Of a DNA stretch of 64,000 bases, positions 34,042 through 56,887 are shown piece after piece. A model generated the notes under the pieces. The model saw only the letters and a list, made by a program, of their open reading frames with translations, ran no database searches and had not been told where the DNA came from. A program made the position numbers and the translations under genes. Source of the DNA: Proteinivorax hydrogeniformans (GTDB taxonomy: Bacteria > Bacillota > Proteinivoracia > Proteinivoracales > Proteinivoracaceae); NCBI RefSeq assembly GCF_040515995.1, contig NZ_CP159485.1, positions 2,418,001-2,482,000 of the forward strand, written 5' to 3'. Each line of letters opens with the position of its first letter. Within the stretch, counting starts at the first letter, position 1.

Positions 34042-34965
34042 TTACATTTTTTGAGAGTTTGCAATCGGACGTCTTTTAACGGTTAAACTCTCTATAACAG
34101 GAACTAGAGCATTCATGATTAAGATTGAAAATGCAACTCCACCTGTTGATGGAAGGAAAAATCTAAAGATACAGATTAGCACTCCAATGCTTATTCCATA
34201 CACAATTTTACCACGAAGGTTATCTGGACAAGTAACCCAGTCAGTGGCCATGAAAATTGCACCTAGTAGCACTCCACCTGTTAAAACACTATAAAAAGGA
34301 TCTTGATTTAAAAACATCGATAGGAAAAATACTGTGGCTATAATGGATACAGGTAGTCGCCACTCAATCTGTCTTTGATACAACAAGTATATTCCTCCAA
34401 GTATCAAAGCTAAAGCTGAGACCTCACCAAATGACCCTCCAGGGAAGGCAGCCAATAGGCTTCCGTAGCTTGGCATTTCAACCCCCTGATGCAGCATGGT
34501 TAATGGAGTTGCCTGGGTAGCTACATCTACCTCTCCAAATATATGAGGCTCATTTACTCTAAATATCCAACCAAACCCTATAGTGGCTACATATCCAAAT
34601 AATGCAGGGTTAAACCGGTTCCAGCCTAGGCCCCCCATCAGCTCTTTTGCTAGCCCAACACCAATTACTGCAGCTATAATAGCGCGCCATGCAGTAACCG
34701 AAGAAGGTAGCACTAAGGCAATCAACATGCCAGTTACAACTGCACTTAAATCAGATATTTTATTTTCCTTACCTAGTATTTTTCTTATCACACTTTCTGT
34801 AATTACAGCCGCTGCTACAGAAACCCCCATAACTATCAGAAAGTTAATCCCATAAAAGTATAGAGATACTAAGCTAACCGGAAGCAAAGCTATAATTACA
34901 TCTAGCATACTATCTTTTATAGTAATGTTTGCTTTTAGCCTTTTCCGGGGAGAGAAAATACTCAT
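34042..34965 (-). CDS. rnfD: RnfD-like FMN-binding membrane subunit (stand-alone)
   Basis: A 307-residue protein with about nine membrane helices. RnfD hallmarks are GGLGWNRFNPALFGYV (111-126), the covalent-FMN region VATQATPLTML with the acceptor Thr at 153, and PGGSFGEVSALALILGG (175-191). The usual SGAT motif reads TQAT, but the Thr is kept. In the RNF complex RnfD carries FMN and helps pass electrons across the membrane, coupled to Na+ or H+ movement. Here RnfA, B, E and G are all missing. It follows the HydA-RnfC fusion by 25 nt and ends the sigma-54-type operon. Inference: it is the transmembrane electron conduit from HydA-RnfC to the exported reductase. Confidence 0.88.
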   Translation of the reverse strand: MSIFSPRKRLKANITIKDSMLDVIIALLPVSLVSLYFYGINFLIVMGVSVAAAVITESVIRKILGKENKISDLSAVVTGMLIALVLPSSVTAWRAIIAAVIGVGLAKELMGGLGWNRFNPALFGYVATIGFGWIFRVNEPHIFGEVDVATQATPLTMLHQGVEMPSYGSLLAAFPGGSFGEVSALALILGGIYLLYQRQIEWRLPVSIIATVFFLSMFLNQDPFYSVLTGGVLLGAIFMATDWVTCPDNLRGKIVYGISIGVLICIFRFFLPSTGGVAFSILIMNALVPVIESLTVKRRPIANSQKM

Positions 34966-34990
34966 AATTCTTCCTCCTTTCCATTAAAAT

Positions 34991-37900
34991 CTAATTTGAT
35001 TTTAATGCTTCTTTTGTTTGCTTTATCATACTAGAAATCGGTCTATTTGATGGACATACATAAGCACATATGCTGCAACCTATACAGCTATCCACGTTAA
35101 ACAACCTACTTTTATTTAACTGCATTGTTTCAGCAAATAAGCTTAGATGATTAGGGTTAAGTTCCATAGGACACCCTTCTACGCATCTCCCACAGTGAAC
35201 ACAATCTTCATAGTTGTTTAACTTGGTTTTTGACAAATCTGCCAAGTTTAAAATACCGTGAACGTCCCTTGTGATAGGATCTTCTAAGGACACCTCTTGT
35301 AACTGCCCATTAGCATCACTAATATAAATACTTGAGGAGTTTCCGTCAATTTGGTTGATATCCACCCCGGCATCTATTAGCAATGATTTTATAGTAACTC
35401 CTAGTTTTACCCTATAGTTAGCGGGATGAGCCACATGGACTCCGTCAACTGTAATAACAGTATCTAAAGTAGGAGCACCTACAAAAATACAACGGTAAAG
35501 ACTTAACACCTTCGAAACATCAGTAATTATACATTCTTGAGAAGATTTGCCTGTGCCGAAGATTCTTTCTACCAGCATATCTTCCTTATTTGTAGGGTAT
35601 CTGTCAGTTACCGTAACAACATCTATCTGCTCGTCATCTTTAAGTTTTTGTGCTAGCAAGTTAGTAACAGTTGTATCGGCTATATTTAGAGCAATTACGC
35701 ACTCATTTAAACTACAAACTTTAAGCAAGGTTTTTATACCTTTTAGGAACTCATTCATGTGTTCTAAAATTAACCGATGATCTTTAGTGATAAAGCTATT
35801 ATTTCCTACTACGTTCACCACAAGTTTATCTTTATGTCTACTGTCCCAATCAATCCCTTTTTCAAATAATGGGATGTTAGACTTTTTATTGCTAATTCCA
35901 AAGTCTTTTGCTAATCCCATATCCACCATCTTTTGCTTTATAACAGCGTTAGGAATTTCTTCTAAGTGCTCAGCTCCTTCAGTTGCCGCAGACACTTCTG
36001 CTGTTGAGGAATCAAAAGGTTCTTTGGGGGTGATCACTATGTCGGCACCTTCATCGTTTACTTTGCTCACTTTACCCGCTACTCCTGAGTAGATAGGGCG
36101 TCCATAAAAGCCATTTGCATCAGCTATTTTTTGTCCCAACATAACCTCATCGCCTGGCTTAACTAAAACTTTTGCTTGCTTACCATCTTCTTGGGTTAGT
36201 GGGTAAATTAACACATCGGAAAGTCCCGCTTCTTTAATCTCTTTATGTTTAGTGCTAACTTGTTGGCGCTGAGTGTACTCTGTGTGTAAAAGTTCATGAG
36301 ATTTATGACCTAAGGGATCTCCTAAAAACTCTTTATACAGTTGCTTTACTGCGGGGTTTTCATGAGACTTCCTAATAGGCAAGTTTTTATCCACTTCATA
36401 TATAGCATTTATCCTTGCATGACGCTTCTCTTTTGTTGCAGGAAGTGGTTGGCCTCCACCCCCGATGCAACCTCCAGGGCAGGTCATCACTTCAACAAAG
36501 TGATAAAAAGCGTCACCGTTTTTAATCATTTCAAATAATTTCCTTGCATTAGTTAAACCATGCACTACAGCCACTTTAACATCTAACTCTCCGACAGGTA
36601 AAGTAGCTTCTTTAATGCCGTCATAACCTCTAACCTGCTCAAATTCTAACCTTCCTAGTTCCTCACCGGTGATTACTTCAACTGCTGTACGCAGAGCAGC
36701 TTCCATAACACCTCCTGTAGCTCCAAAAATAGCTCCTGCACCTGTGGAAATGCCAAGTGGGTTGTCATGCTCCTGAGGATCTAAGTTTTCAAAATCAATT
36801 TTAGCTTTTTTTACCATTCGGGCAAACTCTCTTGTAGTAAGCACAGCGTCAACATCTTGAGTATCCGCTCTTCCCATCTCCGGTCGGTTTGCTTCATACT
36901 TTTTAGCGGTGCAAGGCATAACTGAAACGGAAAAAATATTTTTAGGGTCTATGCCCATTTTTTCAGCATAAAAGGTTTTTGCCAACGCCCCAAACATTTG
37001 CTGCGGAGACTTACAGGTCGATAGGTGATTTAAATATTTAGGGTAATTATGCTCCACAAACTTTATCCAACCAGGACTACAAGAGGTAAACATCGGTAGA
37101 TTTTCACCTTTGTTCACTCTATCAATAAATTCATGTCCTTCTTCCATAATTGTTAAGTCCGCTGTAAAGTTTGTATCAAACACTTTATCAAACCCTAGCT
37201 CCTTTAAGCTAGCTACCATCTGTCCGGTACTAACCCCGCCGGGAGTAATACCAAATTCTTCGCCTATAGAAACCCTTATAGCTGGTGCTGTCTGAGCAAT
37301 TACATGCATATTAGGGTCTTGTATGGCCTCTAATACTCTTTCCTCATGACTTTTTTCTGTCAAAGCTCCTACAGGACAAACTGTAATACATTGACCACAC
37401 TCAACACAAGCAGTGTCTTTAAGCTGCCTATGATATTGAGGTGATACTTCATCGGAAAAAGGCGGAATCACCTGGTCAGGATAACCCTCATACTGATAAC
37501 TCAGTATATCTGTGCTTTGAGTTTCGCTGCAAACTCTTACACAGCGTCCACATAAAATACACTTTTGAGGATCCCTTTTTATCCCTTCTCCACTAATATC
37601 TATGGTATCTTCCTGACGCTTCACGCTGGTAGTATCTAAGTCATTTAACTCAAATTTCTCTGCCAAAGTCATAAGCTCACACTTTTTCTCTCGCAGACAA
37701 TTATCACAATCAACTAGGTGGTTTTCCAAAATTGACTCTAAGATAACCTTTCTAGCTTGTTTAATCTTTCTACTAGATGAGTTTATCACCATTTTATCGG
37801 AAACAGGATGTACACAGCTTGGTACCATTTTATCGTTAGCCACATCTTCTACCATACAAATACGGCAGGCACCATTTTTGTGAACTTCTGGAGGAAAAAT

Positions 37901-38014
37901 GTCTTTATGATGACATAAGGTTGGTATATCTATGCCAGCTTTTTGTGCAGCTTCCAGTATGGTAGTTCCTTTAGGAGTACTAACCTGTTTGCCGTCTATA
38001 GTTATAGTTAGCAA
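34991..38014 (-). CDS. HydA-RnfC fusion: [FeFe]-hydrogenase joined to an RNF electron-input subunit
   Basis: A 1007-residue protein. Residues 1-80: [2Fe-2S] domain with C34, C50, C53, C67. Residues 95-115: His-ligated cluster (H99, C103, C106, C112). Residues 150-215: two [4Fe-4S] motifs. Residues 225-525: H-cluster domain with L1 TSCSPGW (310-316), L2 MPCTAKKYE and L3 EVMTCPGGCIGGGGQP (508-523). Residues 528-575: Fe-hydrogenase small-subunit domain. Residues 598-1000: RnfC with its sandwich-hybrid domain, SLBB region (845-885) and two [4Fe-4S] motifs (C938-C948, C977-C987). The RnfC NADH/FMN motifs (GxGGxxFPT and ECEPY) are absent. TTG start, GGGAGGGG seven bases upstream. I infer that H2, not NADH, supplies electrons to RnfD. 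A single uninterrupted frame rules out an assembly join by eye. Confidence 0.93.
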   Translation of the reverse strand: MLTITIDGKQVSTPKGTTILEAAQKAGIDIPTLCHHKDIFPPEVHKNGACRICMVEDVANDKMVPSCVHPVSDKMVINSSSRKIKQARKVILESILENHLVDCDNCLREKKCELMTLAEKFELNDLDTTSVKRQEDTIDISGEGIKRDPQKCILCGRCVRVCSETQSTDILSYQYEGYPDQVIPPFSDEVSPQYHRQLKDTACVECGQCITVCPVGALTEKSHEERVLEAIQDPNMHVIAQTAPAIRVSIGEEFGITPGGVSTGQMVASLKELGFDKVFDTNFTADLTIMEEGHEFIDRVNKGENLPMFTSCSPGWIKFVEHNYPKYLNHLSTCKSPQQMFGALAKTFYAEKMGIDPKNIFSVSVMPCTAKKYEANRPEMGRADTQDVDAVLTTREFARMVKKAKIDFENLDPQEHDNPLGISTGAGAIFGATGGVMEAALRTAVEVITGEELGRLEFEQVRGYDGIKEATLPVGELDVKVAVVHGLTNARKLFEMIKNGDAFYHFVEVMTCPGGCIGGGGQPLPATKEKRHARINAIYEVDKNLPIRKSHENPAVKQLYKEFLGDPLGHKSHELLHTEYTQRQQVSTKHKEIKEAGLSDVLIYPLTQEDGKQAKVLVKPGDEVMLGQKIADANGFYGRPIYSGVAGKVSKVNDEGADIVITPKEPFDSSTAEVSAATEGAEHLEEIPNAVIKQKMVDMGLAKDFGISNKKSNIPLFEKGIDWDSRHKDKLVVNVVGNNSFITKDHRLILEHMNEFLKGIKTLLKVCSLNECVIALNIADTTVTNLLAQKLKDDEQIDVVTVTDRYPTNKEDMLVERIFGTGKSSQECIITDVSKVLSLYRCIFVGAPTLDTVITVDGVHVAHPANYRVKLGVTIKSLLIDAGVDINQIDGNSSSIYISDANGQLQEVSLEDPITRDVHGILNLADLSKTKLNNYEDCVHCGRCVEGCPMELNPNHLSLFAETMQLNKSRLFNVDSCIGCSICAYVCPSNRPISSMIKQTKEALKSN

Positions 38015-38016
38015 CT

Positions 38017-38769
38017 TTATACCCCTCCCTTATCTTTCTTATATTTTGCCTGTAAATTTTTCACCTTGCGGGTGTGGAATGCGTTAAAGGCCAACAAACC
38101 TCCTCCTACCGCTAGTAATAATGTCTTAAACGGTATATGTTTCCACACCTTTAGCCCAAATGGAATTTGTGGATCGCGAGGTAGATTATACTTTACAGGG
38201 TCGTCTTTTAGCACTGTTAAAACCTTCAAACCATTTAACTCATGTTCACCATAAAGATATGCGTTAGCGTAACCTTGTTCTTTTAATTGGGCAACTCTTT
38301 TTTGACCTATTTTTAGCAGTTCACCTCTGTCACCAAACTTAACAGCTCTAGTTGTACAAACATCTGAGCAAAATGGCTCCTTATTTTGTTTTATTCTGCC
38401 TGAGCATAATGTGCATTTCTCAATAGTGCCATTTGTTCGATCCGGTTCAACTGCATCGAAGGGACAGTTATTAACGCACCAATTACATGTAATACAAAGG
38501 CTTGAGTTAATTATCGTTAAACCGTCTTCATCTTTTTGGCAAGCCCCTGTAGGACAAGCTTTAACACAAGCTGCATCGGTGCAGTGAAAACAAGCCCTCT
38601 TGTCAGTTACTTCCGTAACTGCAGGATAAGTCCCTGAAGACACCTTATTAATTTTTGTCCTATGAACACCACTTGGTAACTCATATAACTGTTTGCAAGC
38701 AACGGTACAGGCATGACATCCGGCACATACTGATTCATCTACTAACATCGCCTTGTTTCCTTCTATCAT
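38017..38769 (-). CDS. Four-cluster Fe-S subunit with C-terminal membrane anchor
   Basis: A 250-residue DmsB/PsrB/FdnH-type ferredoxin subunit. Four cysteine groups are visible: CAGCHACTVAC, CFHCTDAACVKAC, CITCNWCVNNC and CTLCSGRIKQNKEPFC. Residues about 208-228 form one transmembrane helix (TLLLAVGGGLLAFNAF), followed by a basic tail. It has no signal peptide, so it probably crosses the membrane bound to the Tat-exported catalytic subunit encoded upstream. It passes electrons to the molybdopterin subunit. The usual NrfD/PsrC or cytochrome b partner is not encoded; HydA-RnfC follows 2 nt downstream instead. Confidence 0.88.
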   Translation of the reverse strand: MIEGNKAMLVDESVCAGCHACTVACKQLYELPSGVHRTKINKVSSGTYPAVTEVTDKRACFHCTDAACVKACPTGACQKDEDGLTIINSSLCITCNWCVNNCPFDAVEPDRTNGTIEKCTLCSGRIKQNKEPFCSDVCTTRAVKFGDRGELLKIGQKRVAQLKEQGYANAYLYGEHELNGLKVLTVLKDDPVKYNLPRDPQIPFGLKVWKHIPFKTLLLAVGGGLLAFNAFHTRKVKNLQAKYKKDKGGV

Positions 38770-38836
38770 GGGTTTTTCCTCCCCCTTTCGCTAATCTTTC
38801 CTTGTAATATCATCAAAAAGTTTACTACATAAGTCT

Positions 38837-41083
38837 CTATGCCTTTCTAACGTTTAAACAAACTTCAGACATGCAGGCACCGGCTCCAGGGTCATTTAGC
38901 TTTCTAAACTCTTCTACACTAAAGTCTGGAATTAGGTCGCCGTCATTGGCCCCTTTTCCATGTGCAACTTTTAACCCTTTGGCCCAACGACCAAAACCGT
39001 GTTCAATCATTATAGTGTCTGGTCTAATGCCTTCAATCAGTTTTGCCTTTAACTTAATCTCACTGATTTTAGATTCGACAATTACTTCCTCTCCATCTTT
39101 TATGCCCATCTTCTGCGCTACCTGAGCGTTCATCACAGCATAATTCTCAGGAGAGATTTCATCAGCAATAGGGTTATTTTGTGTCCTATGCATCTTATGA
39201 ACATTAGGTCTGTTAATAACTAGATAGAAAGGGTACTTGTCCGATTTTTCCTCAAGTTTCGGCCGCCAAGTAGGAAGTGGGTCAAATCCCTTCTCCTCAA
39301 AGAGAGTTGCGTATAACTCAATTTTACCACTAGGGGTGTTAAACGTTTCTCTTGGCTCTAGGGCTTTTTCATCTCCCCAAAGACCGTTAGGGCTTTTTGA
39401 AAACTCTTCCCAGCTAGTGCCTAGGGCTTTAAGGCGTTCGTCGTTAAACTTACCACCAGAAACACCTTCAAAATATTTTCCTAGACCCATTTTTTCCGCA
39501 ATCTCCATAGTTATAGTTCCCCAACCTTTGGTGTTATAGAGTGAATCATGAACTGGAAGTTTTAAGGCAAGCTGTGGATACATGGAGTTATACGCCCTGT
39601 CAGCAAAACCAGACCCTTCTAACCAATGGGGTTCCGGAAGAACTATATCTGACAATTGCGCTAGCTCTGAAGGAAGTATTTCTAAGGTTACTAAAAAGTC
39701 CATTTCTGCAAAAGCTTTGGTCATTCGCTTAGCATTTGGGAATGTCAATGTATTATAACCTCTTACTAAGGCTGCTTTTACAGGGTAAGGATCTTCGTTT
39801 AAGATGCCATCAGCTACTGTAGCCATGTTCCCCCTATAGTAGGTATGCATTAAAGGCTCCTCTTCCCAACCATCTATTCTCTTTGTAACCATATCTGGAA
39901 ATTCAGGTGGCGGGAATATGGCATCAAAACCAGGCATGCTTGGATTTCTTGGAAGCAAGCTTCCTCCCGGCCGATCTATAGTTCCAACAAGTGCATTTAG
40001 TATTACCTGCGTTTGGGCAAGCTTAGTACTATTTACATAGTTCGGCCCTGCAGCGTCACGTTTATGACTTGGTATGTGAGCAGGTGGTGTTTGTGCAAAT
40101 TCTCTTGCTATCCTTACAATTACATCAGCAGGAACTTCTGTCTTGCCTTCCGCCCACTGTGGCGTGTATTGTTTAGAAAACTCTTTTACTTCTTCAAATC
40201 CTTTGGTGTATTTTTCCACAAACTCTTTGTCATACAACTCTTCTTTAATAATCACATGAATCATAGCCAAGGTAAAAGCTAAGTCAGTTCCTGGTTTGAT
40301 AGGAATCCACTCATGAGCTTTACCCGCTGTTATAGATTTATAAGGATCTAAAACAACTAACTTAGCTCCCTTTCGCATAGCGTCCGTTACATGTTGCATA
40401 TGCATGTTTTTCGCTTTTCCTAAAAGGTCAGTACCAAAACACAAAATATACTTAGAATTTTTTAGATCATATGTCCAAGGCTTACCACTTCCAGTTACCA
40501 TAGCGTGCCAAGCAGCCTCCTGGGTGGTAAAGCATGTGCTTTGGTGAGCTATAAAGTTAGGTGTTCCTATAGCTCTACCTAACCTTTGGGAGAAGGGATT
40601 ACTTCTATGCATAAAGCTAATAGCATGTCCTCCGTATTCCTCTTTAATTTCATTGAATTTGTTGGCGATAGTTTCGATAGCCTCTTCCCAGGATATCTCT
40701 ACAAATTTTGGGTCGACACCTATCCCTTTTTCTGGGTTAGTTCTTTTTAGAGGTTGTTTTAGCCTATCGGGATCATATAAAGTCTCTATGGAGTTATAAG
40801 CTTTGACACATAAACGTCCTTGAGCGGCTAAGTCATCTGGATTTCCTTTTAAATGTACTACCCTTCCATTTTTAACGTAAGCTTTGATAGCGCAGTTTCC
40901 ACTACAAACACCACAAAAACTCGGCACAACCTTGGCCTCTTCTTCATTTAATGGCAGCCTGTCTTGTTCTTTTGCCTTTACAAATTTAGGCACACTTAAG
41001 CCAACTCCAGCTGCTAACCCTGCCCCTATTGATGTCTTTAAAAAATCCCTTCGATTTATCTTAAATTTTTCACGGTCGCTCAC
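38837..41083 (-). CDS. Tat-exported molybdopterin oxidoreductase (PsrA/PhsA-like)
   Basis: A 748-residue complex-iron-sulfur-molybdoenzyme catalytic subunit. A twin-arginine signal (RRDFLK at 11-16, then a hydrophobic stretch to about 36) sends it out of the cytoplasm. The N-terminal [4Fe-4S] site is CGVCSGNC, with the last Cys in GRLCVKA. The predicted Mo ligand is C184 in AHQSTCFTTQEAAW, as in thiosulfate, polysulfide and related reductases. The C-terminal dinucleotide-binding domain begins near NRPNVHKMHRTQNN. GTG start with AAGGAGTG upstream, overlapping torD closely. The substrate is not readable; sulfur compounds are the likeliest guess, and arsenate or others cannot be excluded. Confidence 0.88.
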   Translation of the reverse strand: MSDREKFKINRRDFLKTSIGAGLAAGVGLSVPKFVKAKEQDRLPLNEEEAKVVPSFCGVCSGNCAIKAYVKNGRVVHLKGNPDDLAAQGRLCVKAYNSIETLYDPDRLKQPLKRTNPEKGIGVDPKFVEISWEEAIETIANKFNEIKEEYGGHAISFMHRSNPFSQRLGRAIGTPNFIAHQSTCFTTQEAAWHAMVTGSGKPWTYDLKNSKYILCFGTDLLGKAKNMHMQHVTDAMRKGAKLVVLDPYKSITAGKAHEWIPIKPGTDLAFTLAMIHVIIKEELYDKEFVEKYTKGFEEVKEFSKQYTPQWAEGKTEVPADVIVRIAREFAQTPPAHIPSHKRDAAGPNYVNSTKLAQTQVILNALVGTIDRPGGSLLPRNPSMPGFDAIFPPPEFPDMVTKRIDGWEEEPLMHTYYRGNMATVADGILNEDPYPVKAALVRGYNTLTFPNAKRMTKAFAEMDFLVTLEILPSELAQLSDIVLPEPHWLEGSGFADRAYNSMYPQLALKLPVHDSLYNTKGWGTITMEIAEKMGLGKYFEGVSGGKFNDERLKALGTSWEEFSKSPNGLWGDEKALEPRETFNTPSGKIELYATLFEEKGFDPLPTWRPKLEEKSDKYPFYLVINRPNVHKMHRTQNNPIADEISPENYAVMNAQVAQKMGIKDGEEVIVESKISEIKLKAKLIEGIRPDTIMIEHGFGRWAKGLKVAHGKGANDGDLIPDFSVEEFRKLNDPGAGACMSEVCLNVRKA

Positions 41084-41085
41084 TT

Positions 41086-41703
41086 CTAATTCACTCCTTC
41101 CTTAATATTCAAGTTACATTCTTGAAGCTTAAACTTTCTTCGCTCAACCTCAAGAAAGGCTACAGCATAGTCAATTAGTTTTGTGTAAAAACAGGAGGTA
41201 GTTTTGTCTTTAGCGTCCACTAGTAACTGTGGGACCCACTGATTGATATGGTCGCGATAAAACTCACACTGCAAATCATGCTCTTTTTGTTCTATCAAAT
41301 GCGACATAAAAATTAACTCTGCAGAAACATGGTCCTCTAATAAACGACTACTTGGATCAAGTTTAAACCCACAATCTAAATAAAACTTTTTTACTTTAAG
41401 CCAAGGCTCCTGCTTTAACTGAAACTTCTCTCCCCTATAAACAGATTCGTATGGCCTTACCCCAGTGGGCAACAAAAATGTACTGGTAAATTCTGCTTGC
41501 AACTGAGAAATTTGTTGACCTTTTAATGCAGTTTCCATAGCATTTAATAGTTCATCTGTCACTTTAGTCTCCATATCAAAATATGACGAGGAAGCTTCAG
41601 TTATTTCTATTGCAGTTTGCAAAGTTTCTAGTTCAATTTGTTTGTAAAGCAGACTAGATAGCATTGTATAATTTAATCCCCTTAGATTGTCCTCGGCCGT
41701 CAT
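41086..41703 (-). CDS. TorD-family molybdoenzyme chaperone
   Basis: About 205 residues from the ATG at 41703; a GTG at 41715 overlaps AGGAGG. All-helical, with the TorD/DmsD-type region RPYESVYRGEKF and EDHVSAELIFMSHLIEQ. These chaperones bind the Tat signal and hold the apo-enzyme until the cofactor is inserted. It is the first gene behind the sigma-54-type promoter and overlaps the gene of its presumed client. Confidence 0.85.
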   Translation of the reverse strand: MTAEDNLRGLNYTMLSSLLYKQIELETLQTAIEITEASSSYFDMETKVTDELLNAMETALKGQQISQLQAEFTSTFLLPTGVRPYESVYRGEKFQLKQEPWLKVKKFYLDCGFKLDPSSRLLEDHVSAELIFMSHLIEQKEHDLQCEFYRDHINQWVPQLLVDAKDKTTSCFYTKLIDYAVAFLEVERRKFKLQECNLNIKEGVN

Positions 41704-41758
41704 CAAAGATAGCACCTCCTTTAAGTTTGTGATAAATCCACTAGCAACCTAAATATAT

Positions 41759-41774
41759 AGCAAAAACCTTGCCA
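41759..41774 (-). promoter_or_regulatory. Sigma-54 (-24/-12) promoter
   Basis: The minus strand reads TGGCAAGGTTTTTGCT, an exact GG-N10-GC match (consensus TGGCAC-N5-TTGCW). Transcription would start near 41748, giving a leader of about 45 nt to the torD ATG. The gene just upstream encodes a sigma-54 activator. Confidence 0.85.
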
Positions 41775-41935: not shown

Positions 41936-41955
41936 CTGTAGCGCTTTGTCTACAG
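41936..41955 (-). promoter_or_regulatory. Candidate activator site 2
   Basis: Dyad CTGTAG-N8-CTACAG, sharing the TGTAG/CTACA core with site 1 and centred about 175 bp upstream of the -24 box. It overlaps the 3' end of the activator gene. Confidence 0.55.
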
Positions 41956-44211
41956 CAATTTATGTTTTCTCAACTTCTTGTATAAACTAGTTCTGTGTAT
42001 CCCAAGAAGTTCGGCAGCTTTTGTACGGTTGTTATTAGTTTTTTCTAAAACAAGTTCTAAAGTTTCTTTTTCCACCGAGTCCATAATATCGTCTAAACCT
42101 CTCTTAGAAGTTACATGGTGTTCCACGATATTATTCTTTACTAGATAGTCAGGGAGGTGGTGGAGATAAACTATTCTATCTTCGACCAAGTTAAGCAACC
42201 TTTCAATCATGTTTTCCATCTCCCTTATATTGCCAGGCCAATCGTAGTTATAAAAAGCTTCTAAAACTTTAGGATGAAATTGCTTTTTAGGAAGATTTTT
42301 TTCAACACATAATTTCTTTTTTAGTTCTTCCACTAACACTACTGTATCATCTTTTCGCTCTCTTAAAGGGGGCAAAGTTATATTAAGTACATTTAAACGA
42401 TAAAATAAATCCTCGCGAAACTTCCCTTTTTTGATTTGGTTGCTCAAATTTTTATTTGTTGCTGCTATAACTCTTACATCAACGTCAACAGGGCTAGCCC
42501 CACCTAGACGTTGGATAGTTTTATCTTGTAGCGCACTCAATAAATTTGACTGCATTTCAAGTGGCATATCTCCTATTTCATCTAAAAAGATAGTACCACC
42601 GTGGGCCTGTTCAAATTTGCCTGTTTTTCCACCCTTTAAAGCACCTGTAAAAGCCCCTTCCTCATAACCAAACAGTTCTGATTCTAGTAATGTTGGGGCA
42701 ATAGAGCTACAATCTACTTTAACAAAAGGTTTATCACAACGCTTGCTACTTTCGTGAATTATTTGGGCATACAAACCTTTACCCGTACCACTTTCTCCTA
42801 AAAGAAGTACCGTTGAATCGCTTTGGCTAGCTTTATAGACAAAGGATTTTGTATTTTCGACCTTTTGCGAAACTCCTACTATTTCTTTTAATTTTTCATG
42901 AGCGTTATTGTATCCCGACTCTAATTTATGCTTTTTTATATCGCTGCTTACTTTATTTTGCATATAAGGCCAACACATCTCAGCTTCAGAAATTCCACTG
43001 TATGCTGCAGCTGCTTTTTGCTTACAGGTATCATATCCGCAAACTCCACAGTTTAACTCATCTTCATCGCTAAATTTATCAGTACGCTTTAAAATTTCTC
43101 TTAACTCTTCTTCAGTAGGTTGTAAGTTATCCTGACTATATTTTCCCATAAAGCAGCGGTTTAGATTAATTTTTTGAGCCTTGAAGTCCGATGTACTTTT
43201 TTCGGATTCACTATCGGAAGAACTGTAGTAACTTCTATCATTATGAGATTGTATGACCCGCCTTTTTCTTTCATAATAGCTTATATCTCTATCTAACCCC
43301 GGCCCACTTATACATCCTTTACAAAACAAAATATCGATTAAGGCGGGTTTTTGAATTTCTTGATTTCGTATAGCTTCTAAAACCTCTAATACATCATCTT
43401 TTCCCTCTACTGTCATTATTCTGTTATCCAAAGCATCACTATCTTGCATTTTTGCTAGCTTGCTTAGCTCTCCCGCAAATGGCAACACCGGACCATTCTC
43501 TGGATATGGAGGATCTAAAGGTAAAGAAACCTCGTTTTTTAGATCAATGCTTTTATTAGCAAATATTTTTTTCAATTCCGTAAAAGTTATAGCGACGTCA
43601 ACGCTATTTTTTAAACACTCATGTTCGATTTCATCTTTTTTGCCGATACATGCCCCAATAAAGACCACATTTAATTCTTCATCTTTATAATAATTTCTAA
43701 CCAGCCTTGCCATGGCAATCATAGGGGAAACGAACCTTGTGATATTGCATAACAAATCGTTATAATGATGTTCAATTAAATTACATATTACAGGACAGAC
43801 AGAGCTTAAAAGTATCTCATCAGACTTTAGTATATCTTTGTTGTTTTTATTAAATTCACTTATGATTAGTTCAGCACCAGCAGATATATCACAAACTTCA
43901 TCAAAGCCAACTTTTTTAAGTGCGCCTATCACTTTATCTGCTCCACTATCAAACGCTGCTGGAAAAGATGGATCCAACAGCGCCACTGTTTTTTTCTTGC
44001 TATCTAAAAGTCTTTCCACTTCGTTTATATCTTCTTTTAGCTGTTTAGCTTCTTGCGAGCAAACCTTATAACACAGACCGCATTTAACGCAATCTTCTTT
44101 TATTATTTCAGCCCCACCATCTATAACCTTTATTGCATTAACAGGGCAAGCCCGGAGACAGTTGAAACATTTTTTACAAAGCTCTTCTTTGGACTTTACA
44201 ACAGAAAGCAT
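41950..44211 (-). CDS. Sigma-54 activator with N-terminal [FeFe]-hydrogenase-like sensor
   Basis: About 753 residues from the ATG at 44211, eight bases after GGAGG; an ATG at 44217 is closer to it. Residues 12-55: two [4Fe-4S] ferredoxin motifs. Residues 75-310: Fe-hydrogenase large-subunit-like domain with degenerate H-cluster motifs SSVCPVIC (138-145), GACIGKKDE (188-196) and CKGCISGPG (299-307), keeping the cluster-type cysteines. Residues 388-420: four-cysteine Fe-S domain (CGVCGYDTCKQ). Residues 450-690: AAA+ domain with Walker A GESGTGKG, GAFTGA at 521-526 and Walker B GTIFLDEI. Residues 705-753: Fis-type HTH. It probably senses H2 or redox state and activates the operon downstream. Confidence 0.92.
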   Translation of the reverse strand: MLSVVKSKEELCKKCFNCLRACPVNAIKVIDGGAEIIKEDCVKCGLCYKVCSQEAKQLKEDINEVERLLDSKKKTVALLDPSFPAAFDSGADKVIGALKKVGFDEVCDISAGAELIISEFNKNNKDILKSDEILLSSVCPVICNLIEHHYNDLLCNITRFVSPMIAMARLVRNYYKDEELNVVFIGACIGKKDEIEHECLKNSVDVAITFTELKKIFANKSIDLKNEVSLPLDPPYPENGPVLPFAGELSKLAKMQDSDALDNRIMTVEGKDDVLEVLEAIRNQEIQKPALIDILFCKGCISGPGLDRDISYYERKRRVIQSHNDRSYYSSSDSESEKSTSDFKAQKINLNRCFMGKYSQDNLQPTEEELREILKRTDKFSDEDELNCGVCGYDTCKQKAAAAYSGISEAEMCWPYMQNKVSSDIKKHKLESGYNNAHEKLKEIVGVSQKVENTKSFVYKASQSDSTVLLLGESGTGKGLYAQIIHESSKRCDKPFVKVDCSSIAPTLLESELFGYEEGAFTGALKGGKTGKFEQAHGGTIFLDEIGDMPLEMQSNLLSALQDKTIQRLGGASPVDVDVRVIAATNKNLSNQIKKGKFREDLFYRLNVLNITLPPLRERKDDTVVLVEELKKKLCVEKNLPKKQFHPKVLEAFYNYDWPGNIREMENMIERLLNLVEDRIVYLHHLPDYLVKNNIVEHHVTSKRGLDDIMDSVEKETLELVLEKTNNNRTKAAELLGIHRTSLYKKLRKHKLL

Positions 44212-44562
44212 AAACATTACCTCCCCAACTATACGGCCGTAAGCTTTTCTGCCTTTTCTTTAATATAATACTTATAGTGGTAAATTTCAATATTAATTTT
44301 CATCGCATAAGGTGCTACCCTCTAATTTTTAAGGTTGTAATGATTTTTTAACTACTGACTTAAGTTATACCTTCAACAACAAACATATTATAAACACATT
44401 TTTTTAGAGGTTTATATGTGTAAGATTTTGTGATAGAATAAATTTAATAAGCTTGAAATAATTTTTAATAAACTCTAAGATATTTACTTCTTACTTAACA
44501 GCATATTAAACAGTATATCATAAAAGAATCATAGCAAGTATAATAAAAAAGGAGTGTTTTAA
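44212..44562. other. Divergent intergenic gap between activator and tatA
   Basis: About 350 AT-rich bases. I see no gene, no clear GG-N10-GC element and no copy of the TGTAG/CTACA dyads. It must hold the promoters of both flanking genes, but I cannot fix them. Confidence 0.5.
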
Positions 44563-44780: not shown

Positions 44781-44805
44781 AACTGCAAGCTAAGAGGAGG
44801 TGCCT

Positions 44806-45534
44806 TTGTTTGTGACTACTAAACTAACATTGATCGATCACTTTGCAGAGTTACGCAAAAGGTTAATCATTATATTCATATCTACTATTGGAGCTGCCGC
44901 TTTAACTTATATGCACATTGACCCAATTATAGGGATTCTTTTAAAACCAGCGGATAACATAGAATTTATTTACGTTAGCCCGCCAGAACTTCTATTAACC
45001 TACATAAGGGTATCCATTATATTAGGTGTTTTCTTTGCATCCCCCATTATCCTTTTCCAGCTTTGGTTGTTTTTAAGTCCTGCATTGAAAAAGAAAGAAC
45101 AAAGATACTTGTTGTTGGCACTATTTGTAGGTATTTTGCTCTTTATTGTGGGAGCAGTTTTTGCTTATTTTATAATTATTCCGTTAACCTTAGACTTTTT
45201 TGTTAGGTTATCTGCAGGGCAAATTGATGCAATGTTTTCAATTGCTAATTATATCTCTTTTATCAAATCTCTAATATTGGCTTTTGCGCTAGTTTTTCAA
45301 CTACCGTTAATAATTGTTTTGCTAAGTCAGCTAGGTCTAGTCACTGCAAAATCATTAAGGAAATTTAGAAGGTATTTCCTTCTTATAATCATCATTGTAG
45401 CTGCGCTCATTACACCACCTGACATAATTTCTCAATTTTTGATGGCCGGCCCGATGATTGTATTGTATGAGATAAGTATTCTAATATCTGCTCTTATTGA
45501 CAGAAGAAGAAAGAAAAAGCGAAAGAAGAAGTAA
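44806..45534 (+). CDS. tatC: Twin-arginine translocase subunit TatC
   Basis: About 242 residues with six membrane helices. The N terminus LTLIDHFAELRKRLIIIF is the TatC signal-recognition segment, and FASPIILFQLWLFLSPAL matches the conserved loop; RLSAGQIDAMFSIANYISF follows later. TatC binds the twin-arginine motif. Start uncertain: TTG at 44806 (five bases after GAGGAGG) or GTG at 44812; a GTG at 44800 lies in the ribosome binding site. Basic C-terminal tail (DRRRKKKRKKK). Confidence 0.95.
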   Translation: MFVTTKLTLIDHFAELRKRLIIIFISTIGAAALTYMHIDPIIGILLKPADNIEFIYVSPPELLLTYIRVSIILGVFFASPIILFQLWLFLSPALKKKEQRYLLLALFVGILLFIVGAVFAYFIIIPLTLDFFVRLSAGQIDAMFSIANYISFIKSLILAFALVFQLPLIIVLLSQLGLVTAKSLRKFRRYFLLIIIIVAALITPPDIISQFLMAGPMIVLYEISILISALIDRRRKKKRKKK

Positions 45535-45734: not shown

Positions 45735-47924
45735 CTACTTTACCATAAAGAAAAACACTAATAAAAATGTCAAGATTATAGAATATATAATTACATCACT
45801 ATTTATAAAGGAGATTTCGCATTTATTAACTTCTTTATCGACACATTTAACAAACTTTTCTATCAAACTTGCTTCCTCTATATCCCCATTTATTGTTCCT
45901 TTACTATAAGCATTAAGGTGTTGTAGCCTTTCTCTTTTATCTTCAACTACCACAGAATTCGCAGAATAAAATGTGTCGGCATGCTTCGAAGTGCTAACCT
46001 TATGAGATAATAAGACTACAAATTCTTTTAACTTAACAAACGGTAAAATTAAAACCCCTTCAATACTGAACCATTTAGGGAAATGTAGGTGAAACAATTG
46101 ATATTTTATTCCTAGATAAAAGATAATACCACCCATAACATATACTGGAATCATTCCTAGTAAATCAGATGTTGCAAATATGTTCATATCAACTATATAG
46201 TTGTTTATAAATTCCGGGTCATAGGTTACAGCACTAGCGGCAGGTACAATAAATATATCTAATAAAAAGTTAGGAAAAATTCCAATTAGAACTATCACTA
46301 GCGCCAGACCAGCCATAGCTATATTCATCATGGGAAATTCCCCCTTAACGTTTTCGAGTTCTTTTGGGGATTTACCCAAAAATATGAATGAAGTCCATTT
46401 AATAAATGAACAAGCGGTTCCGGCACTTATAATTATAAAAAGAACTTCTGCAATTTTAAAAGAAGGGTGTCCATATATAAAAGCTTCTTCTATAGCATGA
46501 TGTAACAGTGTTTTACTTGCAAAACCGTTAAACAAAGGCATACCAGTTATTCCTAAAGCAGCAACGGTACTAACTGCGAAAGTAAATGGCATTTTTCTCC
46601 AAAGGCCACCCATTTTATACATATCTAAAGTACCAACCTTTAAATAAACAGCTCCTGTAACCATAAAGAGTAAGCTTTTAAAAAGCGCATGATTTATAAT
46701 ATGATACATAGCACCTGAATATCCCATAGCACCTTTGTATCCTAAATATACCGCGACTCCGATACCCATAATAATATAACCCATTTGACTTACGCTATGA
46801 AAGGCTAGCATCTTTTTTATGTTTCCTTGTTGAAGAGCCATAAAAACACCTAACCCCATAGTCGCTATGCCAAGCCAGATAATTATGGCACCTAATGTTT
46901 GAGCAGAAATCCAAATACTATCTGAAAACCCTTCAGTGACTTGGTGCATTTCCGGAAAGAAAAAACTGGTCGTAGTTCTAATAATCCCGTAGGCACCTAT
47001 TTTAACCATTATCCCTGAAAGCAATGCACTTGCAGGTGTCGGAGCTATTGGATGTGCTTTGGGGAGCCAAATATGAAGTGGTGCAAGCCCTGCTTTAACA
47101 CCAAAACCAATAATAAAAAGTCCCATAATAAAATATTCTAAACCACCTAAGTTTTGCATTTCAATGGCTAGGTTAGCGTATTCTAAAGTTCCGACATTTA
47201 TAAATAACAATATCATTGCTAATAATATACATAGCCCGCCCATTATTCCCATATAAATATAGCTATTACCTGCCTCGATGCACTCTTTTGTTTCACAGTG
47301 CACTACCAACATATAAGAACTAAAGGTCATCGCTTCAAAAAACAAGAAGGTTGTAAAAACACAGCCAGACATTACCGTCCCTAAAATAAAACCAAAAGTT
47401 AGCATCAAAAAAAGATAAAATCTATTTCTGTGAGCCTCTTTGTTCATATAATCCGGTGCATAAATAGTAACCATTAACCAAATAAACGAGGATAACAACG
47501 CTATTACTAGGGAGGTCATATCAATCCTAATGTTAATTCCATAACCTAAAAGCTCTGAAATACGCAAAAATATAGCTTCTTCTCTTACAACAGGATAAAG
47601 AAGCAATATCATTATAAAGGTTAAAAAAGTAATATCTACAACTAGTATATCCCTTAACTGCTCATGGTTCGAAAACATGCCGACAGCCAATACTCCAAAA
47701 ATTATTGGAAACAATATTATCAACAACGGATAAAATCTAAAATTAAATATAGTATCTATTAGCACTTCCTTAAATCCGCTGAAATAGCCAAATTCCATAC
47801 TCAAGATAACTACCAGAGCTAAGGCTGATAATGCTATCACCGACACATTGTTTATTACTGTCAATGCTTCATTTTTAGCGTCAGCAGACTCTGCTTTTTC
47901 CCCCTTGTGTAATATCCTTTCCAT
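45735..47924 (-). CDS. NuoL/MrpA-like proton-conducting subunit, paralogue 3
   Basis: A 729-residue protein with about 16 membrane helices. The antiporter core has the conserved Glu in FLFFEAMTFSSYMLVVH and the Lys in GFGVKAGLAPLHIWLPKAHP. Both residues are needed for ion translocation in NuoL/M/N and MrpA/D. A soluble loop after about residue 640 and a final helix (YSIILTFLLVFFFMVK) extend it beyond a normal NuoM-type protein. It is one of three near-identical-length paralogues in this cluster. A 416-nt gap and hairpins precede it, so it may be a separate transcript. Confidence 0.85.
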   Translation of the reverse strand: MERILHKGEKAESADAKNEALTVINNVSVIALSALALVVILSMEFGYFSGFKEVLIDTIFNFRFYPLLIILFPIIFGVLAVGMFSNHEQLRDILVVDITFLTFIMILLLYPVVREEAIFLRISELLGYGINIRIDMTSLVIALLSSFIWLMVTIYAPDYMNKEAHRNRFYLFLMLTFGFILGTVMSGCVFTTFLFFEAMTFSSYMLVVHCETKECIEAGNSYIYMGIMGGLCILLAMILLFINVGTLEYANLAIEMQNLGGLEYFIMGLFIIGFGVKAGLAPLHIWLPKAHPIAPTPASALLSGIMVKIGAYGIIRTTTSFFFPEMHQVTEGFSDSIWISAQTLGAIIIWLGIATMGLGVFMALQQGNIKKMLAFHSVSQMGYIIMGIGVAVYLGYKGAMGYSGAMYHIINHALFKSLLFMVTGAVYLKVGTLDMYKMGGLWRKMPFTFAVSTVAALGITGMPLFNGFASKTLLHHAIEEAFIYGHPSFKIAEVLFIIISAGTACSFIKWTSFIFLGKSPKELENVKGEFPMMNIAMAGLALVIVLIGIFPNFLLDIFIVPAASAVTYDPEFINNYIVDMNIFATSDLLGMIPVYVMGGIIFYLGIKYQLFHLHFPKWFSIEGVLILPFVKLKEFVVLLSHKVSTSKHADTFYSANSVVVEDKRERLQHLNAYSKGTINGDIEEASLIEKFVKCVDKEVNKCEISFINSDVIIYSIILTFLLVFFFMVK

Positions 47925-48340
47925 TATAATCTCCTCCAGTTTCCCCTTACTATTCTAATATTAAAAAGGCTTTATTATCGACAGATTATTATAGTACTAG
48001 TACCTGCCTATGCCGAGGCGCCATCCACTACTACACTTTGGATGGCGCCTTTTCTGATTAGCTTTGCATTCTTGCTGTAACTGGTTGAATCTGTCAATAG
48101 CGTGCACGCTGGGTCATAAAGTCAATAACCAACTGACTGGCTCCAGTCAGTTGATTAAGCTACTTTATTTTAGGTATTAAATTAAATTAAAATCAACCAT
48201 TTATTTGTGAAAATCTATTTTAAATTAAAATTAAAGTTTACATAATATATCTTATATCATAACACTAAAAACACACTTCGTTAAACATACAAGGCTTTTA
48301 CCCATTAAACTAGGCGACATTTAAGCCGCCTAGTTTAATG
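47925..48340. other. Hairpin-rich gap between two NuoL-like genes
   Basis: No gene. Three perfect hairpins occur: AGGCGCCATCC/GGATGGCGCCT (48016-48050, T-run only on the plus side), AACTGACTG/CAGTCAGTT (48131-48152) and CATTAAACTAGGCG/CGCCTAGTTTAATG (48303-48340), the last directly after the upstream gene's stop. The middle part, near 48160-48250, is very AT-rich and probably holds the promoter of the downstream gene. Confidence 0.5.
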
Positions 48341-50494
48341 TTATTTTACTACAAAGAAAAACACTAAAATAAAAGTTAAAATCATTGAGTATAACAAGAC
48401 ATCTGATTTGATAAAGGGTGTCTCACATTTACAGCAAATTTGTTTATCAACAAAACCTGCAAATTTTCTTACCATGCTATCTTCTTCTATTTCTTCCTTT
48501 GGTATCTCAACATTTGCTTCACAAGATGAGGTGGTATATATTACCATATCATCTCTCCTTGTTAAATTTAATTTTTTCATTATCTTAAAAGCTATTTCAA
48601 TAAGTTTTCTTACTGGTAGGGTAATTAAGCACTCAAAGCATAACCATTGAGGAAATCTAACTTTGAATAAAGAACCTTTGATCCCCCAGTAAAACAAACC
48701 TGCTCCCATTAAATATACCCATACCATTCCAACTAGGTCATCTCTGGCGAAAATATTTATCCCAACAATATAACTATCGATGAACTCTGGGTCATATGTT
48801 AAACCCTGAGCAGCAGGGATAATAAAATTATCCAATAAAAAGTTAGGAAAAACTCCTATTAACACAATCGCTGCTGCAACCCCACCCATAGCAATATTCA
48901 TTATGGGAAATCCTTCTTTTATATGCTCATGTTCGTTTGGACATTCGCCAAAAAAGATTCCATATGTCCACTTAAATAAAACACATGCTGTTCCTGCACT
49001 TATAATAACAAATAAATAGTCCGCCACTAAAAACATGGAATGCCCATACATATGCGCTTCTTCGATACCATGGTGCAGAACTGTTTTACTAGCAAAACCA
49101 TTAAAAAGGGGCATTCCTGTGATGCCAAGGGCAGCAATTGTACTAACTACAAAAGTAAAGGGCATTTTTTTCCAAAGCCCGCCCATTTTATTTATATCTA
49201 AAGTGTGTACTTTTAAATAAACTGCTCCAGCTACCATAAACAGAAGGCTTTTATATAAGGCATGGTTAATAATATGGTAAAGTACTCCAGAGTAACCCAT
49301 TGCACCTTTATAACCAAGGTAAACCGCTACTCCAATTCCTAATATAATATAACCCATTTGGCTTACAGTACTAAATGCCAACATTTTCTTTATATTTGTC
49401 TGTTGCATAGCCATAAAAATTCCTATACCCATAGTAGCAATTCCAAGCCAAATTACTATAGCTCCTAGGGTTTGGGCGGAAATCCAAATGCTATCTTCAA
49501 AGCCCTGTGTCACCTGAGAAAATTCCGGAAAGAAAAAGCTTGTAGTGGTACGAAGCATCCCATAAGCTCCCACTTTAACCATTATCCCGGAAAGCAATGC
49601 GCTGGCAGGAGTTGGAGCTACAGGGTGAGCTTTAGGAAGCCAAATATGCAGAGGAACTAAACCTGCTTTTACCCCAAAACCTATTATAAATAGTGCTAAA
49701 ATAAAATACTCCAAACCTCCTAAGGTTTGCATCTCGTACGCTAAGTTCTCATACTGCAAAGTCCCCGTGTTAATAAACAATAGAATCATTGCCAATAATA
49801 TACATAGGCCACCCATTATACCCATATATATATAGCTGTCTCCAGCATCAAGTGCTTCCTTAGATTCGGAGTGCACAACCAACATATAAGAACTAAATGT
49901 CATCGCTTCGAAAAATAAAAATGTTGTAAACACTCCACCAGCTAGTACAGTACCTAATATTCCACAATAGGTTATTGATAAAAACAAATAAAACCTACAT
50001 CGATGGTCTTCTTTATTCATATAGTCTGGTGCATAAATCATTACCATAAGCCAAATAAAGGCTATTAATGTCGCTAAGGTTAACGAAGTCATATCTGCTG
50101 TGAAGTTTAATCCGTATCCCAACACTTTATCAATTGCTAAAGTGAGGTTTCCATTTATAACCGAAGGGTAAAGGGATAGCAACATAGCAAAAGTAGCAAA
50201 GGTTATATTTACTAATAAAATATCTCTAAGATTTTCCCATTTTCCACCAAGTGGTGCTGTAAAGACTCCCAACAACGGTAAAAGAACGATTACTAAAAGA
50301 TAAGCAGGGTATTTTTCTACAAAACTTTCCAACCATTGACTTAACTCAATAAAGTTACCCGCCGCCATTGAAAACGTAACTATTAGAGCACCTATAGCTA
50401 GAAGGAATATAAAAATGCTATTTCCCTTTTGTATTAATGAGCCAAAATTATTCTGTGGCGGATCAACATTTATATTTACTTTTGCGTTATTCAT
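48341..50494 (-). CDS. NuoL/MrpA-like proton-conducting subunit, paralogue 2
   Basis: A 717-residue paralogue of the proteins at 45735 and 57487. The same key residues are present (Glu in FFEAMTFSSYM, Lys in GVKAGLVPLHIWLPKAHP), as is the C-terminal soluble loop followed by a last helix (ILTFILVFFFVVK). The loop carries a local CxC (QICCKCETPF) absent from paralogue 1. Strong GGAGGGG site before the ATG. A 34-nt element shared with the Cache gene lies 29 nt upstream of the start, suggesting its own promoter. Confidence 0.85.
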   Translation of the reverse strand: MNNAKVNINVDPPQNNFGSLIQKGNSIFIFLLAIGALIVTFSMAAGNFIELSQWLESFVEKYPAYLLVIVLLPLLGVFTAPLGGKWENLRDILLVNITFATFAMLLSLYPSVINGNLTLAIDKVLGYGLNFTADMTSLTLATLIAFIWLMVMIYAPDYMNKEDHRCRFYLFLSITYCGILGTVLAGGVFTTFLFFEAMTFSSYMLVVHSESKEALDAGDSYIYMGIMGGLCILLAMILLFINTGTLQYENLAYEMQTLGGLEYFILALFIIGFGVKAGLVPLHIWLPKAHPVAPTPASALLSGIMVKVGAYGMLRTTTSFFFPEFSQVTQGFEDSIWISAQTLGAIVIWLGIATMGIGIFMAMQQTNIKKMLAFSTVSQMGYIILGIGVAVYLGYKGAMGYSGVLYHIINHALYKSLLFMVAGAVYLKVHTLDINKMGGLWKKMPFTFVVSTIAALGITGMPLFNGFASKTVLHHGIEEAHMYGHSMFLVADYLFVIISAGTACVLFKWTYGIFFGECPNEHEHIKEGFPIMNIAMGGVAAAIVLIGVFPNFLLDNFIIPAAQGLTYDPEFIDSYIVGINIFARDDLVGMVWVYLMGAGLFYWGIKGSLFKVRFPQWLCFECLITLPVRKLIEIAFKIMKKLNLTRRDDMVIYTTSSCEANVEIPKEEIEEDSMVRKFAGFVDKQICCKCETPFIKSDVLLYSMILTFILVFFFVVK

Positions 50495-50522
50495 TTCATC
50501 CCCTCCTTTATTAAAATTTGCT

Positions 50523-50556
50523 TTGGCAATTGTAAAACTTTACAATACCTGATATA
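50523..50556 (-). promoter_or_regulatory. Shared upstream element, copy near NuoL-like paralogue 2
   Basis: On the minus strand it reads TATATC, then AGGTATTGTAAAGTTTTACA, then ATTGCCAA. About 24 of 33 positions match the element at 53354-53386, and both start 29 nt before an ATG. It includes a dyad ATTGTAAA/TTTACAAT and a TACAAT -10-like box. Likely a promoter with an operator. Confidence 0.5.
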
Positions 50557-50698
50557 AAACGCTTCAAAAAGCCTCGCCAAATCACGCAAGTGTTATTTTG
50601 AGACTAAGGTTTAAACTCTGATCATTTTGCAATACCCATAAATCTATTTAATCCATTTCAAAAATTTACAGCGTCTTAATTCATTTCATAATTTGATC

Positions 50699-52309: not shown

Positions 52310-52332
52310 TTCTATGCCCCCTAAAATATCTT

Positions 52333-53325: not shown

Positions 53326-53353
53326 TTATATCCCCCCTAAGGTTAGTTTAATA

Positions 53354-53386
53354 TTGGCGATTGTAATGCTCTACTATGCCTTATAT
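53354..53386 (-). promoter_or_regulatory. Shared upstream element, copy near the Cache gene
   Basis: On the minus strand TATATAAGGCATAGTAGAGC is followed by ATTACAATCGCCAA. It aligns without gaps to 50523-50556 and sits at the same 29-nt distance from its ATG. TACAAT may be a -10 box. Confidence 0.5.
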
Positions 53387-53474
53387 AGCAACGTTTTTTA
53401 AGATAATATCATCTAGCTATTAGTTAAGGCTTAAAAATAGAGTTACACTTCAATTACTAAAAAGCCTCAAACAG

Positions 53475-55332: not shown

Positions 55333-55334
55333 AG

Positions 55335-56063: not shown

Positions 56064-56299
56064 TTTTCAGTCCTCCTTGTCCTACTAATGACAGCTACGA
56101 AAAGCATGGTGGTTACCCCTGCACCCATGGCAGCTTCAGTTAAGGCGATATCGGGAGCTTTTAAAAGCAACCATAGCACCGCCATTGTAACACTATATGC
56201 ACCAAAAATTACTACAGCACTTAACAAGTCCTTTGTACGCTCTACTGCTAAAGCACAACATATTAAAAATAAAATTAAAACTACATTTAACACTAACAT
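56060..56299 (-). CDS. MbhD-like (DUF4040) subunit
   Basis: A 79-residue protein with three helices. AVERTKDLLSAVVIFGAYSV and LKAPDIALTEAAMGAGVTT match the DUF4040 domain found in MrpA C termini, MbhD and NuoJ-like proteins; the Asp-x-Ala-xx-Glu pattern lies on a functional helix. It overlaps the MbhE-like gene by 4 nt, so translation is probably coupled. Confidence 0.88.
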   Translation of the reverse strand: MLVLNVVLILFLICCALAVERTKDLLSAVVIFGAYSVTMAVLWLLLKAPDIALTEAAMGAGVTTMLFVAVISRTRRTEK

Positions 56300-56315
56300 T
56301 TTTCCACCTCCACCA

Positions 56316-56884: not shown

Positions 56885-56887
56885 ATC

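Follow-up and report, generated by a model that had tools for sequence, protein, structure and literature searches.

A HydA-RnfC fusion and RnfD encoded with a molybdoenzyme in Proteinivorax hydrogeniformans: a candidate quinone-free hydrogenase complex

The window analysed here, 64,000 nucleotides of the Proteinivorax hydrogeniformans genome (contig NZ_CP159485.1, positions 2,418,001 to 2,482,000), carries a minus-strand operon of five intact genes that encode a TorD chaperone, a molybdoenzyme, an iron-sulfur (Fe-S) protein, a HydA-RnfC fusion and RnfD, with intergenic gaps, in operon order from TorD, of 2, 67, 2 and 25 nt. Coordinates and profiles agree with a preliminary description of this DNA in naming these five packed genes, among them the 1007-residue fusion; the genes lie where it had put them, within 34042-41703, except that the TorD open reading frame (ORF) starts at 41715 rather than 41703. 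Profile searches likewise bear out its statement that RnfA, RnfB, RnfE, RnfG, NrfD/PsrC, cytochrome b and a quinone-binding subunit are not encoded within the operon, in which RnfD is the sole multi-helix membrane protein. The features of the operon, in window coordinates and with the twin-arginine translocation (Tat) signal and the lost flavin mononucleotide (FMN)/NADH site discussed below, are as follows.

41086-41715, minus strand: TorD-type chaperone (profile Nitrate_red_del)
38837-41083, minus strand: Tat-signal molybdoenzyme, PsrA/PhsA-like (Molybdopterin domains and TAT_signal above cut-off; PDB matches)
38017-38769, minus strand: Fe-S subunit with 16 cluster-type Cys (four [4Fe-4S]), FdnH/NrfC-like (profiles, alignment)
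38071-38130, minus strand: membrane helix at the C-terminus of the Fe-S subunit, with a basic tail after it (sequence; aligned in all five relatives)
34991-38014, minus strand: HydA-RnfC fusion, 1007 aa, a single ORF with a TTG start (profiles; same fusion in L007 and L115, the two loci introduced below)
36266-38014, minus strand: HydA domain, residues 1-583, group A6 [FeFe] hydrogenase (NF040763; PDB matches)
34991-36265, minus strand: RnfC domain, residues 584-1007 (rnfC profile; 7zc6_C; Foldseek 9eri_C)
35786-35932, minus strand: site of the former RnfC FMN/NADH loops (GMGGAxFPT, NGAECEPYLT), now unrelated sequence (alignment, model)
35054-35203, minus strand: the two [4Fe-4S] motifs of RnfC, CVHCGRCVEGCP and CIGCSICAYVCP, kept (alignment, eight Cys invariant)
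34042-34965, minus strand: RnfD, membrane flavin subunit (PF03116 289 bits; TIGR01946; 9eri_D)

We find that the HydA part of the fusion is complete, matching NCBIfam FeFe_hydrog_A6 (NF040763) over residues 3-583 with 866 bits against a cut-off of 765, and retaining the N-terminal [2Fe-2S]/[4Fe-4S] domains and the H-cluster motifs TSCSPGW, MPCTAKK and CPGGCIGGGGQP; its top PDB matches are HydA1 of T. kivui (8a6t, 628 bits) and of A. woodii (7q4v, 587 bits). TSCSPGW was considered as a possible motif defect and rejected, as the same motif is present in A. woodii HydA1, whose bifurcating complex has been solved. The RnfC part aligns with the rnfC profile over the full model (residues 583-1005) at 215 bits, short of the cut-off (246), while unfused RnfCs encoded with molybdoenzymes in other genomes score 498 and 534 bits; its PDB match is 7zc6_C (149 bits). 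The predicted model of this part finds A. woodii RnfC best in Foldseek (9eri_C, E 1e-26, template modelling score 0.69), followed by further RnfCs and then NqrA, and the substituted FMN/NADH loop is a low-confidence stretch of that model. In an alignment, the FMN/NADH motifs GxGGAxFP and NGxECEP are present in 14 of 14 unfused RnfCs and in none of the three fusions, all of which keep both CxxCxxCxxxCP motifs intact, the eight Cys being invariant. Canonical RnfC bears FMN, reacts with NAD(H) and exchanges electrons with the RnfD riboflavin through two [4Fe-4S] clusters (PMC9588780, PMC11889175, PMC12174285). Because the FMN/NADH motifs are lost while both [4Fe-4S] sites are kept, we infer that the fused RnfC domain would now act as an electron wire through its two clusters and not as an NADH enzyme, the fused hydrogenase having made its NADH site redundant. 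The route through the RnfC clusters in the preliminary description is thus amended in one respect: having lost its FMN/NADH site, the domain could carry electrons only by way of its two clusters.

RnfD scores 236 bits against NCBIfam rnfD (TIGR01946, cut-off 207) and 289 bits against PF03116, with A. woodii RnfD (9eri_D, 190 bits) as its closest PDB match, and residue mapping shows that it retains the FMN-attachment Thr153 and the riboflavin-site residues Asn119, Met239 and Asp242. Thr153, Asn119 and Asp242 correspond to T156, N123 and D249 of A. woodii RnfD, where the importance of the equivalent residues is known from mutation or structure and electrons pass from RnfG-FMN to RnfD-FMN, then to riboflavin and on to the RnfC clusters (PMC11889175, PMC9588780, PMC12174285). 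The molybdoenzyme most resembles T. thermophilus PsrA among PDB entries (2vpw, 384 bits; ArrA, 243; formate dehydrogenases (FDHs), 179 or less), and its best NCBIfam match is PhsA at 462 bits, under the cut-off of 694. QSTCF is found in every PsrA-type member, with no FDH-type Cys/Sec-His signature, and its Cys is likely the molybdenum ligand. The cluster Cys of the Fe-S subunit are kept in five genomes and its anchor helix and basic tail in all relatives; it has no signal peptide of its own and is presumably exported together with the Tat-bearing molybdenum subunit. In the window, as in the three PsrA-type relatives, the gene for the Tat channel protein TatC lies beside this operon.

The complete five-gene operon is also present in Natronincola peptidivorans (G398, locus L007) and in another member of that family (genome G496, locus L115), each with the fusion as one ORF (1027 and 1012 aa, respectively) that is ~70% identical to that of the window. 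The preliminary description had proposed a genome search for such fusions, and these two further genomes show that the fusion is not confined to the window contig. Identity to the window is 80-81% for the molybdenum subunit, 75% for the Fe-S subunit, 77-79% for RnfD and 53-58% for TorD, and within the fusion 80-82% for the HydA part and 54-57% for the RnfC part. Values of dN/dS (the ratio of nonsynonymous to synonymous substitution rates) of about 0.05-0.17 in each part with computable dS, which is saturated in two window-G496 comparisons, reveal strong purifying selection. Because it recurs in two other genomes under purifying selection, the fusion is neither chance, an artefact nor a frameshift. 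It is rare, found in 1 of 13 genomes searched from the window's class and 2 of 20 from Natronincola's family, with no further fusions, at the threshold used, in samples of 394 genomes from the order and 398 from the phylum. Baseline proteins across the same genomes are far less similar (ApbE, 36%; TatC, 40-43%) than the operon proteins, and for this reason the operon has likely moved between lineages by horizontal transfer. Apparent fusions in Thermosediminibacter and Fervidicola, where query residues 1-1001 were matched, were rejected because hydA and rnfC are separate genes there, each in its own cluster (hyd and rnfCDGEAB, lying side by side), and RnfC matches within the window's class (G001, G004, G006-G008 and G010) belong to canonical RNF operons.

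Two further genomes (G414 and G349) show the same architecture without HydA. The G414 operon consists of tatC, TorD, a PsrA-like molybdenum subunit (59-60% identical), an Fe-S subunit, an unfused RnfC with intact FMN/NADH motifs, and RnfD; this locus (L119, G414:C2:197000-214000, 7444-13518) is an NADH-type version, and a NuoE/NuoF/NuoG-like cluster lies a few kb downstream. In the G349 operon (L120, G349:C9:117000-136000, 8087-14293), genes for an FdnH-like Fe-S subunit, RnfC and RnfD accompany one for a formate dehydrogenase that bears a Tat signal and has an in-frame TGA as its selenocysteine codon (CARL-U-HSS; 938 bits to the FDH-N model). This operon adjoins an Mrp-type antiporter cluster and probably specifies a transmembrane formate:NAD+ enzyme that involves neither cytochrome b nor quinone. 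In both the RnfC and the RnfD trees, the five molybdoenzyme-linked members are split from all canonical RNF proteins by a 100/100 branch, with long branches meeting at this node such that the order within it is unsure. On the strength of gene content and trees, we thus propose an RnfCD-linked molybdoenzyme group, defined by a molybdenum subunit, an anchored Fe-S subunit, RnfC and RnfD in one operon and represented by five genomes; as the searches listed only those RnfCs most like the fused one, counts of such operons are a lower bound. For the possible new respiratory complex of the preliminary description, a conserved unit (three genomes) and the lack of a quinone route are supported, but the composition is not isolated, given these sister operons without HydA. 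In the simplest history, extracytoplasmic molybdoenzymes first acquired RnfC-RnfD as an NAD(H)-linked way round quinones; in a single PsrA-type line, RnfC then gained a hydrogenase by fusion and lost its NADH site. A set of only RnfC, RnfD and two RnfG with a Tat-exported FDH, reported for the soda-lake acetate oxidiser Ca. Syntrophonatronum acetioxidans (PMC6295475), may be another RnfCD-linked system.

The window genome, a single 2.83 Mb contig that is 99.9% complete, contains a separate complete rnfCDGEAB operon with apbE at about 1.142-1.148 Mb, and the only two Rnf-Nqr (RnfA/RnfE-type) genes in the genome are both in this canonical operon at 1.14 Mb. A canonical RNF lacking RnfC and RnfD, which the preliminary description had raised as a possible user of the window subunits, is not what is found: the canonical operon has its own. 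In the canonical RnfD of this genome (L116, 4041-5039), the riboflavin-site Asp is a Cys (MATCYVTSP); mutation of the equivalent Asp, D249, abolishes activity in A. woodii. Neither UbiA (PF01040) nor NrfD (PF03916) is found in the three fusion genomes, two of which are drafts, and a UbiA-family prenyltransferase is present in 14 of 14 control genomes. Known quinone pathways need such a prenyltransferase. With no UbiA and no NrfD in these three genomes, a quinol link for the molybdoenzyme is unlikely.

These genomic data suggest that the operon probably specifies one membrane complex in which a cytoplasmic [FeFe] hydrogenase is linked, without quinone, to an extracytoplasmic molybdoenzyme, that is, an H2:acceptor oxidoreductase. 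That the five operon proteins would form one complex is very probable, and we hold with good confidence that H2 would be its partner; net electron flow outward to a sulfur-type acceptor is as yet an even call. H2 (or ferredoxin) would feed HydA, with H2 split at the H-cluster, and electrons would then run through the clusters of HydA and both [4Fe-4S] clusters of the NADH-blind RnfC fused to it, reaching the riboflavin and covalent FMN of the membrane-crossing RnfD. On the outer face, the C-terminal helix of the four-cluster Fe-S subunit would hold this subunit next to RnfD, in place of RnfG, where it would take the electrons up and deliver them to the PsrA/PhsA-like molybdenum site and an external acceptor. 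The ancestral state may have been as in G414, with RnfC fed from NADH, followed by fusion of the hydrogenase and decay of the NADH site. Coupling of this electron flow to Na+ or H+ export is doubtful, and the specific form in which outward electron flow is tied to Na+ export by RnfD with no RnfA/E, making this a quinone-free H2 respiration, strikes us as rather unlikely. The ion path is proposed to lie in RnfD/NqrB by some models and in RnfA/E by another (PMC12174285, PMC11889175).

Several points weigh against such a complex or against parts of it. The most likely acceptor, polysulfide, thiosulfate or another sulfur or oxyanion compound, is a guess from homology. The fusion occurs in three genomes of two lineages, which probably share it horizontally and are not fully independent. 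The full-length model of the 1007-aa fusion is of moderate quality (predicted local distance difference test 72.5, predicted template modelling score 0.59), and the interdomain arrangement is too uncertain for cluster distances. We know of no function of RnfD outside RNF/NQR or RNF-like flavinylated systems, and no precedent was found in the literature for direct hand-over from an Fe-S subunit to RnfD-FMN. Oxidation of H2 inside with electrons leaving outward would dissipate the membrane potential unless cations leave too, such that energy could be conserved only with cation export, and RnfA/E, the pump site of one published RNF model, is absent from the operon.

The same proteins could instead run inward, with the outside molybdoenzyme oxidising a low-potential donor and HydA making H2 in the cytoplasm, building membrane potential in the manner of a redox-loop lyase. 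This is the energy-conserving direction, RNF in forward mode also moves electrons from outside to inside through RnfD (PMC12174285), and the FDH-RnfCD relative in G349 fits a formate to NAD+ reaction; we nonetheless regard it as unlikely, as the window molybdoenzyme does not have the FDH Cys/Sec-His signature (QSTCF versus the Sec-His of G349) and its closest relative is PsrA, the usual substrates of which are too positive to drive H2 formation. It is also conceivable, if quite unlikely, that ferredoxin is the main electron donor to HydA, entering by way of the N-terminal HydA clusters, and that these electrons are vented via RnfD to the outside reductase, H2 being an overflow or second donor. 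The full set of N-terminal cluster domains in HydA would allow this, and a separate HydABC-type operon, which is present elsewhere in the window genome, could set H2 and ferredoxin levels; strong conservation of the whole H-cluster domain (80-82%) and the neighbouring gene for a regulator with a HydS domain speak for H2 as a genuine partner.

HydA-RnfC and RnfD might, alternatively, swap into an RnfABEG core to make a ferredoxin:H+ reductase that pumps Na+, the molybdoenzyme being an unrelated operon-mate. RnfA, B, E and G are encoded elsewhere in the genome, and RnfC and RnfD retain the parts by which they bind each other, but the idea is improbable in view of the molybdenum, Fe-S and TorD genes that accompany RnfC/RnfD in four genomes (with an FDH version in a fifth), the separate branch on which molybdoenzyme-linked RnfC and RnfD fall, and the RnfC and RnfD that canonical RNF has of its own. 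A recently moved, non-functional or dispensable remnant with a decaying RnfC part would accord with the faster evolution of that part (54-57% versus 75-82%) and with loss of the FMN site; retention of all eight RnfC cluster Cys and of the RnfD flavin residues, together with dN/dS well below 1 in all parts measured, makes this highly improbable.

Compared with known systems, the predicted hydrogenase-molybdoenzyme complex shares with RNF (A. woodii 9ERI-9ERL, C. tetanomorphum 7ZC6) the RnfC fold with its two [4Fe-4S] clusters, an RnfD with FMN-Thr and riboflavin-site residues and, presumably, the RnfD-RnfC half of the electron path, but it lacks RnfA/E, RnfB and RnfG, the molybdenum/Fe-S pair replacing RnfG, and its RnfC is fused to HydA with the FMN/NADH site gone. 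The polysulfide and thiosulfate reductases PsrABC/PhsABC resemble it in a Tat-exported molybdenum subunit (PsrA/PhsA-like here), a four-cluster Fe-S subunit and TorD; the window operon differs in having no quinol-oxidising NrfD/PsrC subunit, its genome having no quinone synthesis either, in using RnfD as the membrane link, and in an Fe-S subunit that is anchored by its own C-terminus, as in FdnH. The accessory clusters and H-cluster motifs are those of bifurcating HydABC group A [FeFe] hydrogenases (A. woodii 7Q4V, T. kivui 8A6T), with ~50-57% identity to stand-alone A6-like HydA, yet HydB and HydC are missing from the operon, a fused RnfC without a flavin site takes the place of the NuoF-like partner, and the complex is predicted to be membrane-bound. 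FdnGHI (FDH-N) resembles it in the Tat-exported molybdenum subunit and the Fe-S subunit with a C-terminal anchor, and G349 is an FDH-N-like version with RnfCD; in the window, RnfC-RnfD stands in place of cytochrome b and menaquinone and the enzyme has no FDH active-site signature. The flavinylated NQR/RNF-like systems of Meheust et al. (2021), which join RnfD/NqrB to an NqrF NAD domain in one protein and use FMN-binding acceptors (PMC8238504), also place an RnfD/NqrB-type protein outside RNF with one-way electron flow to the exterior, and their RnfD/NqrB-NqrF fusion is the nearest precedent; here, RnfD is single-domain, input is by HydA-RnfC and output by the molybdenum/Fe-S pair, and no FMN-binding gene is in the operon. 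Full-text literature searches, covering open-licence papers, found no description of HydA-RnfC fusions or RnfCD-molybdoenzyme complexes. Each module is known, and what is new is the assembly and the repurposing of RnfC; the RnfCD-molybdoenzyme core is the broader novelty, with HydA a derived input.

Textbook chains connect inside donors to outside molybdoenzymes via quinones and NrfD or cytochrome b subunits, whereas RNF parts here seem to pass electrons to an outside molybdoenzyme directly. The group is a natural dissection of RNF, with RnfC and RnfD but without RnfA/E, B and G, and so bears on the disputed identity of the ion-moving part, RnfD or RnfA/E. HydA joined to an RnfC that has lost its NADH site is an example of exchange of a respiratory input module. 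If RnfD did couple electron flow to Na+ export, protons from H2 would be released inside as Na+ exits with the electrons, and the complex would both pump Na+ by redox energy and acidify the cytoplasm, as would suit alkaline, salty habitats; RnfD/NqrB would then be the smallest unit of the RNF/NQR family able to couple ions.

The operon is flanked upstream by the following features.

41759-41774, minus strand: sigma-54 (-24/-12) promoter-like site TGGCAAGGTTTTTGCT (10/11 match, ~45 nt upstream of the TorD start)
41950-44217, minus strand: sigma-54 activator (GAFTGA, Fis helix-turn-helix) with an N-terminal HydS-like [FeFe]-hydrogenase sensor domain (profiles)
44800-45534, plus strand: TatC, the Tat export channel

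Sites like TGGCAAGGTTTTTGCT occur only twice in the 64 kb when both strands are scanned, and this one, located between the operon and the activator gene, is probably the sigma-54 promoter of the operon, with the activator as its probable regulator and a possible H2 sensor. The HydS-like domain keeps Cys at the H-cluster motif positions. This arrangement suggests that the operon is controlled by H2 or redox state in the window organism; neither a sigma-54 activator beside the operon nor a sigma-54-like site before it was found in the relatives. Near tatC, the region 45735-59637 holds five Mrp/NDH antiporter-type membrane genes and an Oxidored_q2 gene, with a Cache-domain gene in between, an unusually large Na+/H+ antiporter-like cluster.

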